This document shows, one piece after another, positions 8,879 through 36,628 of a DNA stretch of 64,000 nt. Every line of letters begins with the position of its first letter. Positions within the stretch are counted from its first letter, which is position 1. The notes beneath the pieces were generated by a model, which had not been told where the DNA came from, ran no database searches, and was given only the letters and a program-made list of their open reading frames with translations. The translations under genes and the position numbers were made by a program. Source of the DNA: Halorubrum halophilum (lineage in GTDB: Archaea > Halobacteriota > Halobacteria > Halobacteriales > Haloferacaceae); contig NZ_BBJP01000004.1 in the NCBI RefSeq assembly GCF_000739595.1, positions 1 through 64,000 of the forward strand, written 5' to 3'.

Positions 8879-10054
8879 ATGCGAACGCGCCGGACCCTGC
8901 TGACATCGGGCGTCGCCGGGCTCGCTGGGATCGCCGGGTGTACCGCTATGCCCCCGACTGCGAACGACGAGAGCCTCGGAGCGACCGGCGACGACGCCGA
9001 AACGGGCGATAACGACGCTGATGCGGGCGACGAGGACGACTCCACCGAGGGCGACGCGACCCGGATAGGGTTCGTCGGCGACCTGATGCTCGGTCGGAGC
9101 GTCAACGAGCGGTGGGCCGACGACGATACTCCCGAAAACGTCTGGGGGTCGACACTCTCGCGACTCCAAGAACTCGACGGACTGGTCGGAAACCTGGAGT
9201 GTTGCGTCTCCAATCGTGGGACGCGCTGGCCGGACAAGGGGTATTACTTCCGGTCGGATCCCGACTTCGCCGTGCCGGCCTTGGAGGCCGCAGGCGCTGC
9301 GTTCGTCTCGCTCGCGAACAACCACGTCCTTGACTACAGCGAGCCTGCGCTCCGAGACACCGACTCGCACCTGACCGACGCCGGGATCGCACACGCCGGC
9401 GCCGGCACCGACAGCGACTCCGCGCTCGAACCCGCGGCCTTCGAGGCGGGCGATCTGACCGTCGCGGCCTTCGGGCTCACCGACCAGTCCGAGGAGTTCG
9501 CCGCGGGAGCGTCGGAGCCGGGGACCGCCTTTGCGACGCTCGATCCGTCCGTGCCCGCGACGCGCTCGCTGGTCGAGACGGTTCTCGAGCGCGCGGCGGA
9601 ACACGACCCCGACCTCGTCGTCGCGTCGCTCCACTGGGGACCGAACTGGGAGACCGAACCTCGGGCGGTCCACGAGCGGTTCGGCCGGTGGCTGATCGAT
9701 CAGGGTGTCGACGTGGTTCACGGCCACAGCGCACACGTTCTCCAAGGCGTCGAGGTGTACCACGGGCGCCCGATCATCTACGACGCGGGGGACTTCGTCG
9801 ACGACTATGTCGACTACATCGACCGGGAGGGCGTCCACAACAAGCGGAGCGCCCTCTTCGAACTGGTGGTGCGTGACGGCAACCTTGACGAACTGGTCGT
9901 CGAGCCGATCGAGATCGTCGACGAGGCGGCGACGCTGGCGGACGACGACATCGCCGAGTGGGTGCGCGATACCCTCACAGCGCGTTCTGCGGCGTTCGAC
10001 ACCGAAGTCGAGCGGAGCGGCGACCGGTTGGCGTTCCCGCTGAGCGAGGAGTGA
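8879..10054 (+). CDS. CapA-family metallophosphatase-like lipoprotein
   Basis: A 391-residue protein. Its N-terminus has twin Arg at 4-5, a hydrophobic stretch and a lipobox ending in Cys21 (AGIAGC), so it should be a Tat-exported lipoprotein. An acidic linker follows. The CapA domain shows GFVGDLMLGRSV (about 63-74), NLECCVSN, SLANNHVLDY (about 143-152), LHWGPNWE and VHGHSAHVLQG (about 279-289), which are the metal and catalytic positions of the poly-gamma-glutamate synthesis protein CapA fold. CapA-like enzymes act on surface polymers; the substrate here is unknown. It lies just after the DUF368 gene, consistent with a cell-surface theme, but there is no direct link. Confidence 0.87.
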   Translation: MRTRRTLLTSGVAGLAGIAGCTAMPPTANDESLGATGDDAETGDNDADAGDEDDSTEGDATRIGFVGDLMLGRSVNERWADDDTPENVWGSTLSRLQELDGLVGNLECCVSNRGTRWPDKGYYFRSDPDFAVPALEAAGAAFVSLANNHVLDYSEPALRDTDSHLTDAGIAHAGAGTDSDSALEPAAFEAGDLTVAAFGLTDQSEEFAAGASEPGTAFATLDPSVPATRSLVETVLERAAEHDPDLVVASLHWGPNWETEPRAVHERFGRWLIDQGVDVVHGHSAHVLQGVEVYHGRPIIYDAGDFVDDYVDYIDREGVHNKRSALFELVVRDGNLDELVVEPIEIVDEAATLADDDIAEWVRDTLTARSAAFDTEVERSGDRLAFPLSEE

Positions 10055-33355: not shown

Positions 33356-33517
33356 AGTCTTCATGTACGAGATGAACAGCAACAGTTGGAGTGTGAAAGC
33401 GAGCAAATCCAAACCACTCCCCATCGCTCCGCGGCCGCATCCGCAAGTTGACGGTCAGCGATAGAACAAGGAGCGGCTACCACTTGGAGACTACAACGAC
33501 GATTTGTACCATCGTTC

Positions 33518-33526
33518 CTTTTTATA
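33518..33526 (+). promoter_or_regulatory. TATA box of the repeat-containing exported protein
   Basis: CTTTTTATA lies 24-32 bases before the ATG at 33550, the expected distance for a leaderless haloarchaeal transcript. This decides the start at 33550 over the frame's earlier ATG at 33448. Confidence 0.65.
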
Positions 33527-33549
33527 GATGGCGTCGATGTCCCCTGGGT

Positions 33550-36447
33550 ATGGTACGACCCTCCCGTCGGGGCTTCCTCGGGGGAAGCGCCCTGACGCTC
33601 GCAGCGCTGACAGGGGTTCTGAACCCCGAAACCGACGCGCAGAGTTCCGGCCGACCGACCGATCTCGACCTCGACATGTCGGGCCCGCTCGCCGACGCAT
33701 TCCTCCCCGTTCCGGCGGGCGACGCGCTGTCGACGACGTACGCGACGGTCATTGCGGAGCGCATCGACGCCGACGCGGCGGAGGACCTGAGCTACCGCGC
33801 CCGTTCCGTGACCGAGCGGCTCGACATCGACGCCGACGAGTTGGCTGCGACGGTCGCGGTCACGCCGTCCGAACGCGGGTTCCAACTGCTGGCGGCAGCC
33901 GGCGGGTTTGACCGACTCGACCACGGTGAGACGATCGCGGTCGGCGAGGGAGACGGTGCGTCAAACGACGACATCCCCACGGAGGCCGAGACGACGGACA
34001 AACTCCCCGCCGGCTGGCGACTCACCGATGACGGTGAGACCGCGTTCGTCACCGGCGAGGGCGTGGCGGCCGCCGCGACCGGCAACGAGAGTCCGCCGAG
34101 TCCTCGCGGTCGTTCGGACACGTCAGGAGACGCCACGACCGACTGGCGGCTCGAAGCTGCTCGCGCCGCCGGCCGTGCGGCCGCCGGTGAGGCCGACCGC
34201 GTTGCGGAATCGCCGTTGGGCACGGCTGCCCTCCCTCGTCTCGGTGGGTTCGAAACGGTGCTTTTGGTTCCGGACGCCGCCGGCGGTCCGTTTCCGCCCG
34301 CGGTTCCCGACGACGTGGACGCATTCGCTGTCGGCTTCGAGACCGACCCTGACGATCTCAGAGACCTCGACGGAACCGCGGAGAACGCGTACGTGATTCG
34401 CCCGGCTGCTGACGCCCGCGGGCTCGACGACGAGACCATCGAGCGACTCGTGAGTTCCGTCGATCCCGCCGTCCCGGTCGAGATGGAGGTCACCCGAACT
34501 GACGGACTCGTGCTCGTCGACGCGGTCGTCGAGGCCCCGCCGGAACTCGACCGCGAGGCGTCGCCGGACGCCGGAGTCCGGTCGCAGTTCGACCGTGCCG
34601 CCGGGACAGTGACGTTCGAACACGTCGAGGGCGAGCCGGTGCCGGCCGACGAGCTGGAGGTGTGGCACGACGGCGAGGAGGTGAGCGACGCGGTCCTCGA
34701 CGGCGAGGAATTCACGGCCGGCGACGAGATCGCGATCGAGACCGGACTGATCGCAACCGTCACGCTGCGGTGGTTCGACCCGGACGCGAACGTCTACGAC
34801 ACGTACGCTCGCGAACGGGTCGACCGCGAGGCGTTCGCCGTCGACTACGACATGAGTGCCGAGACGGTGGAGCTCGGCTACGAGGCCGAACGCCCCGCCG
34901 ACGCACACACCCTTCGGCTGGTCCACCGCGGCGAGGACGGCGTCCAAACGGTCGGAGACGAATTGACCGACGGAACGCTCGAACCCGACGACGCTGTCAC
35001 CGTCGAGGACGTGTCGATTGGCGACAGTGTACAGCTGGAGTTCGACGTTGAACAACCTCGGGGTGGCGGCTCGCTCGTCCATTACCGTGCCCGTCCCCCG
35101 CGCGTTTGGATCCACTCGCGCCCCGAGGAAGGGACTACGGTACAGTACAACGGAGAGGAGTCTCGTCCCGCTGACGCGTTCGTGACGCTGAACGACGGAG
35201 AGCCCACAGACGTGCAGTTCGCCGACGAGCACGACACGCTCTCGGGCGACGAGGAGCTGGTTCTCGGCGACCTTCCACTGGGGAGTACAGTCGCAGTCGA
35301 GTGGCGCGAGCCGGACGAGCCGACCGTCATCGCCGAAGAGGAGGTCGTCCCGAACACGCGCGCGTCGATGGAGTACGACCCGGACGCGGGCGAGATCACG
35401 GTCCAGCATCGGAGCGGCCGGGCCCTTCCGGCTTCGGAGTTAGAGCTTCAGGCCGGTCGGACCCCGACCGATGTCCAGCCCGCGGACGAACTCGACGAGT
35501 TCGGACCCGACGACTCGTTCAGCGCTCCGGTGCCGCCGCTCTCGCGGGTCCGACTCGTGTGGACCGGCGGCGACCGCGACCACCATCTCGGCGGCGCGAC
35601 CACGGCAGGCGACGCGGTCGCGGCGACCTACGACGTTGACGCCGAGGCCATGACGATCGAGTACGTCGGTGAACAACCCGCTGACCCCGATCGGCTGCGC
35701 GTGTCGGTGAACGGCGCCGACGGATCACGGGGGCGAGAACGCGATCAGGAGCCGGCGTTTGCGGTCGAGCACGACGAACTCACGGCGGGAGACACGATCA
35801 CGGTCGACGACGTCGGGCTCGACGAAACCGTGATCGTCAGCGTCCACACCGAGTTCGAGAACGGTTCGGCGACCAGTTCCGTCGCTCACTTCTCGGGGAC
35901 CCCCCGCCGCGGATTCGTCGTCGATGACGGAGACGACGACGAAGCGTCAGCGACGACGCTCCGCTACGTCGGCGAGGTTCGCCGCGACGCCGACGCCTTC
36001 CGGGTTCTGATCGACGGTGAACCCGCACCGGACCAGCCTGCCGACGAGACGGACCGGCTGACTGGTGGGGAGACGCTGTCGCTCGGCGATCTGTCCGCCG
36101 GTACAACGGTTGCTGTCGAGTGGACGGCCGGCGGCGAGACCCGAACCGTGACGGAGCACGTGATTCCCCCGCAGGCGACGTTCGAGGTCGCGTATGAACC
36201 GGCCGACGACGCCGAGGGAGGCGTCGTGACGGTCTCCCACGTCGGCGGTGACACACTGGACGCCGACCGCGTTGACGTGGTCGTGGAACCGGCGACTGAG
36301 GGATTGCGCCCGTGGGATCCCGACGCCGACGAGGTGGCCGCCGGCGACGAGATGAGTGTCACGGTCGACACGAGACCCGAGATGGCCGTCGTCGTCTTCA
36401 ACGAGAGCGAGGCACTCCACCGCGAACCGTTCGACCAAGACGGGTAA
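33550..36447 (+). CDS. Large Tat-exported protein with seven beta-rich repeats
   Basis: A 965-residue acidic protein. The N-terminus MVRPSRRGFLGG and the hydrophobic ALTLAALTG form a Tat signal without a lipobox Cys. A unique domain of about 310 residues comes next. From about residue 345 to the end, seven related units of about 80-95 residues follow. Each starts near a form of YDPDAGEITVQH or YDVDAEAMTIEYVGE, then has a form of ADELEV or DADAFRVLIDGE, and later GDEL or GGETLSLGDLSAGTTVAVEW. The pattern resembles the beta domain of archaeal pilins, multiplied. It could be an extracellular stalk or adhesin. There is no C-terminal sorting signal visible. The gene is divergent from the dehydrogenase. 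Confidence 0.82.
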   Translation: MVRPSRRGFLGGSALTLAALTGVLNPETDAQSSGRPTDLDLDMSGPLADAFLPVPAGDALSTTYATVIAERIDADAAEDLSYRARSVTERLDIDADELAATVAVTPSERGFQLLAAAGGFDRLDHGETIAVGEGDGASNDDIPTEAETTDKLPAGWRLTDDGETAFVTGEGVAAAATGNESPPSPRGRSDTSGDATTDWRLEAARAAGRAAAGEADRVAESPLGTAALPRLGGFETVLLVPDAAGGPFPPAVPDDVDAFAVGFETDPDDLRDLDGTAENAYVIRPAADARGLDDETIERLVSSVDPAVPVEMEVTRTDGLVLVDAVVEAPPELDREASPDAGVRSQFDRAAGTVTFEHVEGEPVPADELEVWHDGEEVSDAVLDGEEFTAGDEIAIETGLIATVTLRWFDPDANVYDTYARERVDREAFAVDYDMSAETVELGYEAERPADAHTLRLVHRGEDGVQTVGDELTDGTLEPDDAVTVEDVSIGDSVQLEFDVEQPRGGGSLVHYRARPPRVWIHSRPEEGTTVQYNGEESRPADAFVTLNDGEPTDVQFADEHDTLSGDEELVLGDLPLGSTVAVEWREPDEPTVIAEEEVVPNTRASMEYDPDAGEITVQHRSGRALPASELELQAGRTPTDVQPADELDEFGPDDSFSAPVPPLSRVRLVWTGGDRDHHLGGATTAGDAVAATYDVDAEAMTIEYVGEQPADPDRLRVSVNGADGSRGRERDQEPAFAVEHDELTAGDTITVDDVGLDETVIVSVHTEFENGSATSSVAHFSGTPRRGFVVDDGDDDEASATTLRYVGEVRRDADAFRVLIDGEPAPDQPADETDRLTGGETLSLGDLSAGTTVAVEWTAGGETRTVTEHVIPPQATFEVAYEPADDAEGGVVTVSHVGGDTLDADRVDVVVEPATEGLRPWDPDADEVAAGDEMSVTVDTRPEMAVVVFNESEALHREPFDQDG

Positions 36448-36628
36448 GGGAGCCTTTTGACATCCTCTCACGGGACACATACGTAACAGGGGGCGCCTGT
36501 TTATTCTACAAAATATTGTACTGAATATAGAGTTCCAACGGGGCTTGGACGATTAGCATTCGGGGAAATATCGAGAGACAGCATAACCGAAAGCACCACC
36601 GAGAGGCGCGGTTGAGGGAGCATAACTC

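Follow-up and report, generated by a model that had tools for sequence, protein, structure and literature searches.

How did a head domain of archaeal pilins come to stand seven times over in a single exported chain, and what might such a chain do at the cell surface? This question is raised by one open reading frame in the window (the whole 64-kb stretch of DNA analysed here), whose 965-residue product begins MVRPSRRGFLGGSALTLAALTGVL and whose limits, signal and putative promoter are as follows.

33550..36447, + strand: whole gene, 965 aa, predicted to be Tat-exported with seven pilin-head units (open reading frame and translation; purifying selection)
33550..33639, + strand: Tat signal peptide without a lipobox (TIGR01409, 18.3 bits, cut-off 16.7; zero Cys)
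33520..33527, + strand: TATA-like promoter element, ~30 nt before the ATG (sequence and Halorubrum comparison)

The twin-arginine signal is recognised by the NCBIfam model TAT_signal_seq (18.3 bits vs a cut-off of 16.7), and since the acidic protein (116 Asp, 98 Glu) does not contain a single cysteine, it lacks the lipobox of Tat lipoproteins. The TATA-like TTTTTATA lies ~30 nt 5' of ATG 33550, and 11 of the 13 Halorubrum copies compared have a comparable hexamer at -30 to -27; given this conserved spacing, a leaderless mRNA probably starts at ATG 33550.

Downstream of a large N-terminal domain, residues 339-965 form exactly seven consecutive beta units of 84-99 residues each, sorted below by the types (A, B, C) that emerge from comparison with relatives.

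34564..34827, + strand: unit 1 (type A), pilin-head beta domain (residues 339-426; best Pilin_N stretch 334-376; aligned to 8fj5_A by VIA-align)
34828..35100, + strand: unit 2 (type B; residues 427-517; 39.7 bits; pairs with unit 5)
35101..35352, + strand: unit 3 (type C; residues 518-601; 39.5 bits; 46% identity with unit 6)
35353..35610, + strand: unit 4 (type A), the most conserved unit (residues 602-687; 48.9 bits; median dN/dS 0.127)
35611..35907, + strand: unit 5 (type B; residues 688-786; 46.1 bits)
35908..36168, + strand: unit 6 (type C; residues 787-873; 40.1 bits)
36169..36444, + strand: unit 7 (type A-like, terminal; residues 874-965; 25.3 bits; second Pilin_N match in the whole-genome scan)

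The units are 15-46% identical to one another, units 3 and 6 being the closest pair. When a profile of the protein was compared with itself, residues 301-666 aligned with 572-944 over 355 columns (30% identity, E 1.8e-45), a shift of ~275 residues that equals three units. A unit HMM built from four-unit relatives only found seven significant domains (25.3-48.9 bits); in the control, 412 of 1000 residue shuffles that kept the composition gave any match, with a top score of 11.2 bits. The preliminary description had counted about seven repeats, and structure prediction with AlphaFold2 gave neither an unrelated fold nor fewer repeats: the same beta unit recurs along 339-965, where 10-residue blocks mostly have a pLDDT of 70-92 (below 50 for residues 1-215). 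The model has a pTM of 0.42, because of which it does not establish the rod shape or the angles between units. In the L030 copy, an unusually long segment (162 aa) takes the place of unit 7.

The likeness of these units to the pilin beta domain of archaea, and their linkage into a single chain behind a Tat signal without a lipobox, had also been noticed at the outset and are borne out by several comparisons. Pfam Pilin_N (PF07790) scores 40.9 bits on the whole protein (cut-off 25.2). When 177,635 PDB sequences were searched with a profile of 21 Halorubrum units, only the pilin 8fj5 of Haloferax volcanii matched clearly (E 3.2e-5, followed by 0.085). A second profile, drawn from 25 diverse members of the family, returned 8fj5 again (E 2.2e-7, followed by 0.32); scanned singly, 12 of 25 family members matched Pilin_N at E 1 or better. 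At the level of structure, VIA-align placed 8fj5_A first for unit 1 of the AlphaFold model (Z 10.7, 2.6 A, 91 residues aligned; next Z 7.1), a match obtained for this unit and not for every unit, and pilin ranked first in VIA-align only: the 50 Foldseek matches listed consisted mainly of complement proteins and of arrays of the receptor and fibronectin types. The same genome has seven loci above the Pilin_N cut-off, with N-terminal helices visible by eye, and the top Pilin_N match of the genome, a 166-aa pilin of contig C77, is also found by the unit profile besides the seven units themselves (E 5.9e-4). Altogether, profiles and model indicate homology between the seven units and the head domain of archaeal type IV pilins.

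Judged by its sequence, the 965-aa protein is nevertheless not a pilin. Pilins use a hydrophobic N-terminal helix for membrane storage and polymerisation. Here, the best Pilin_N stretch covers model positions 33-76 of 78 only, that is, past the helix, and the N-terminus is a Tat signal instead of the class III signal and hydrophobic helix of PF07790 pilins, which are small one-head subunits and not chains of 965 residues with seven heads. Because this helix is missing, the protein cannot be built into a pilus as pilins are.

The part between signal and array is a domain of its own.

33640..34563, + strand: N-domain without a named family, ~300 residues, its second lobe modelled as alpha/beta (residues ~31-338; profile and models)

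Searches of Pfam and NCBIfam returned no family for this N-domain, its profile had 0 matches among PDB sequences, and no catalytic family was recognised. A profile of 24 diverse N-domains (including an ortholog from the same genus), built without the 965-aa protein, recovers its N-domain at E 3.3e-44. At E 1e-4 or better, it has matches in 95 of the 292 genomes searched across the class (completeness 90% or higher) and in 38 of 76 genera, haloarchaea being the only group searched. The predicted structure has a mean pLDDT of 49.5 and model residues 1-185 are nearly all below 50, so low that only the second lobe can be interpreted. The best that this model finds in the PDB is weak: Foldseek reaches E 0.06, and the top VIA-align score is Z 5.9, ahead of ribosomal S24e/S6 and ACT-like folds. 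Such values lie within the range that the tool calls common, and we therefore claim no fold. DUF3352 (PF11832) was considered as the identity of the N-domain and rejected: it had no match in the genome itself and none over the cut-off in 39 genomes, where three fell below it.

Absent from the preliminary description was the fact that the protein belongs to a family found across haloarchaea, in which the N-domain is common to all members and is followed by 0, 1, 4, 6 or 7 units. Named relatives at 62-85% identity to the 965-aa protein are all from Halorubrum. Among 79 relatives with a complete N-terminus, 39 have four units, 34 seven, five six and one a single unit, counts in which the 0/1-unit class is under-sampled, the 79 having been chosen by similarity to the 965-aa protein and its relatives. 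In the 34 seven-unit proteins, position profiles pair 1 with 4 (E 4.6e-25), 2 with 5 (7.4e-25) and 3 with 6 (8.6e-33), and profile 7 matches 4 and 1, which gives the order A-B-C-A-B-C-A; from this order, the seven-unit form would have arisen through duplication of a three-unit block. The first units of four-unit proteins sort imperfectly (24/39 best match types 1/4/7 and 15/39 type 5). In six-unit proteins (L080, L079, L130-L132), type C is the best match of units 3, 4 and 5 in all five, so these forms, which carry extra type-C units and have two origins on the tree, appear to have grown differently from the seven-unit ones.

An N-domain tree of 99 rows, made by a quick method and rooted at its midpoint, bears on this growth. 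All 33 seven-unit rows form one side of a branch with support 98, and the full set of unit-number labels needs 7 changes vs 49.9 in shuffles, with 0/1-, 4- and 7-unit rows separate. The tree thus shows what would be a single duplication of the three-unit block on the way to the seven-unit form, whose sister group comprises four-unit lipoproteins and most six-unit forms. Because the root is a midpoint, we infer, and do not read off, the direction from one to four to seven. The relatives with 0 or 1 unit are ~300-460 residues long, and all 17 of the signals laid out bear a twin arginine and a lipobox (a further 0-unit relative outside the tree, L157, has no lipobox by eye); nearly all are predicted Tat lipoproteins. 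In two loci (L143, L147), related genes for Tat lipoproteins with one unit each stand in tandem, three or four to a row. By pattern, a lipobox is present in 8/38 four-unit, 2/5 six-unit and 0/33 seven-unit rows, with the proviso that the pattern missed three of 15 one-unit rows, all of which bear AGC or SGC lipoboxes by eye. Work on Haloferax supports a role of the lipobox cysteine in how Tat substrates are processed and associate with the membrane (PMC2945643). The simplest history would start from a Tat lipoprotein with one pilin head, pass through four units (A-B-C-A) and reach seven by duplication of a three-unit block, the lipid anchor being lost along the line to the seven-unit form.

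The surroundings of the gene point to no fixed partners. Its ten neighbours encode ThuA-like, PHP, MFS, PLP-dependent, GFO/IDH/MocA and EamA proteins, an unnamed 140-aa protein, indole-3-glycerol phosphate synthase, a second PLP-dependent enzyme (in the trpB place) and tryptophan synthase alpha; no pilus or assembly gene occurs among these ten. When 33450-36468 was compared with other Halorubrum copies (L021-L033), the shared DNA mostly began ~63-105 nt 5' of the start codon (29 nt in L025, and 5 nt or less from the ATG in L033 and L029) and stopped within ~21 nt of the stop codon, leaving a short promoter stretch and the ORF only, and the flanks vary in nearly every Halorubrum genome compared, even inside the genus. 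From this restricted sharing and the differing flanks, the gene, which has a TATA-like box of its own, is most likely transcribed alone. A conserved operon was considered and rejected: even the most frequent other family turns up in just 5 of 34 neighbourhoods (in this clustering the simple gene caller lost the gene at L068, taking an overlapping frame instead).

Selection on the protein is purifying throughout, with median dN/dS of 0.13-0.39 by region (66 pairs from 12 Halorubrum orthologs). These orthologs differ less in the array than in the N-domain (mean identity 83.0% vs 74.0%; median dN/dS 0.222 vs 0.338), which argues that the array is not a free linker. The slowest regions are units 4 and 3 (dN/dS 0.127 and 0.149) and the fastest is the first N-domain lobe (0.386; identity 70.4%).

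What could such a protein do? At about an even chance, we read it as an exported surface protein in which a Tat signal and an N-domain precede a rod of Ig-like pilin heads that serves for surface contact or adhesion. The protein would fold in the cytoplasm, cross the membrane by Tat, and then be held by an uncleaved signal or lie in or outside the S-layer; with neither a lipobox nor another anchor, it may also be simply released. An Ig-like domain is usually ~4 nm long, and the seven heads would form an extended rod of ~25-30 nm that contacts surfaces, other cells or the S-layer.

The roles of the two parts could also be reversed, with the N-domain as the working part (ligand binding or catalysis) and the array as a spacer raising it through the S-layer. 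The N-domain is indeed the constant part of the family, many lipoproteins have it with one unit or none, and the number of units varies among relatives. However, the first lobe of the N-domain evolves fastest and units 3 and 4 slowest, and the N-domain matches no recognised catalytic family; we regard this alternative as rather unlikely. Still less probable, in our estimate, is that the array pairs with real pili or other pilin heads, as a pilus partner, cap or decoy. Its units are homologous to pilin heads, the genome has its own Pilin_N loci, and Ig-like outer domains touch one another in published archaeal pili (PMC11178852); against it stand the lack of any pilus gene among the ten neighbours examined and the patchy occurrence of the gene, which is present in 12 of 35 Halorubrum genomes. 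The new kind of surface fibre that the preliminary description had envisaged, with the 965-aa protein polymerising, comes slightly lower again and we consider it improbable: the repeated domain is one used in filaments, but the polymerising helix is absent, the ten neighbours hold no assembly genes, and single-chain arrays reach length without polymerisation. Finally, repeats arising by chance or from the acidic composition of a haloarchaeal protein are refuted by the shuffles of that same composition, which never exceed 11.2 bits, and by the recurrence of one unit in the AlphaFold model.

The 965-aa protein can be set beside three known kinds of protein. With the Haloferax volcanii type IV pilin 8fj5 it shares the beta head to which each unit is homologous, but it has a Tat signal, seven heads and a large extra N-domain where that pilin has a class III signal and a helix. 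With the haloarchaeal 0/1-head Tat lipoproteins, for which no family name was found, it has the N-domain, the order of parts and the Tat signal in common, whereas those have a lipobox and no more than one unit, and it has seven units and no lipobox. To Ig-like and fibronectin-type arrays such as fibronectin and gp130 (among the best 50 Foldseek matches listed) it is similar in having tandem beta-sandwich domains in one extracellular chain, an arrangement also described for hypervariable Ig proteins of Thermococcales (PMC8416519). The units of Ig and fibronectin type III arrays resemble the unit here in fold, and the unit profile gave no sequence match to them in the PDB; the unit here is a pilin head, and it follows an N-domain found in haloarchaea, the only group searched.

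More tentatively, and with somewhat less than even confidence, we propose that the pilin head moved out of the filament to become the building block of a distinct class of haloarchaeal surface proteins: Tat-exported single-chain rods on an unnamed N-domain, grown from one to four to seven heads by duplication of a three-domain block and acting as adhesins or contact proteins without pilus machinery. We found no published description of such a protein in the literature searched, outside which most subscription papers lay. In this protein the pilin head of archaea is seen reused as a repeat unit outside filaments, and the growth stages that survive in living species (0/1, 4, 6 and 7 units) offer a testable case for the origin of archaeal Ig-like surface arrays. 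The comparison also brings to light a lipoprotein family that is widespread in haloarchaea and for whose N-domain the Pfam and NCBIfam searches returned no family.

Genome G110, from another family of the order, holds a copy (L064/L044) that is 80% identical to the 965-aa protein and nests among Halorubrum copies on the N-domain tree, which suggests acquisition by horizontal transfer. No relative was found in the viral scan and none in phages, and the plasmid search returned one distant relative, annotated as a hypothetical protein, from Natronorubrum aibiense. Two copies depart from the intact form: that of genome G185 (L075) is broken into two reading frames of 579 and 630 aa, and in that of genome G012 (L012) similarity fades after about unit 2, both probably reflecting damage or an assembly error. 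Elsewhere in the window, two short frames at 575-1213 resemble, by eye, a broken insertion-sequence transposase, and 8879-10054 encodes a Tat lipoprotein with a CapA-like look, again judged by eye.
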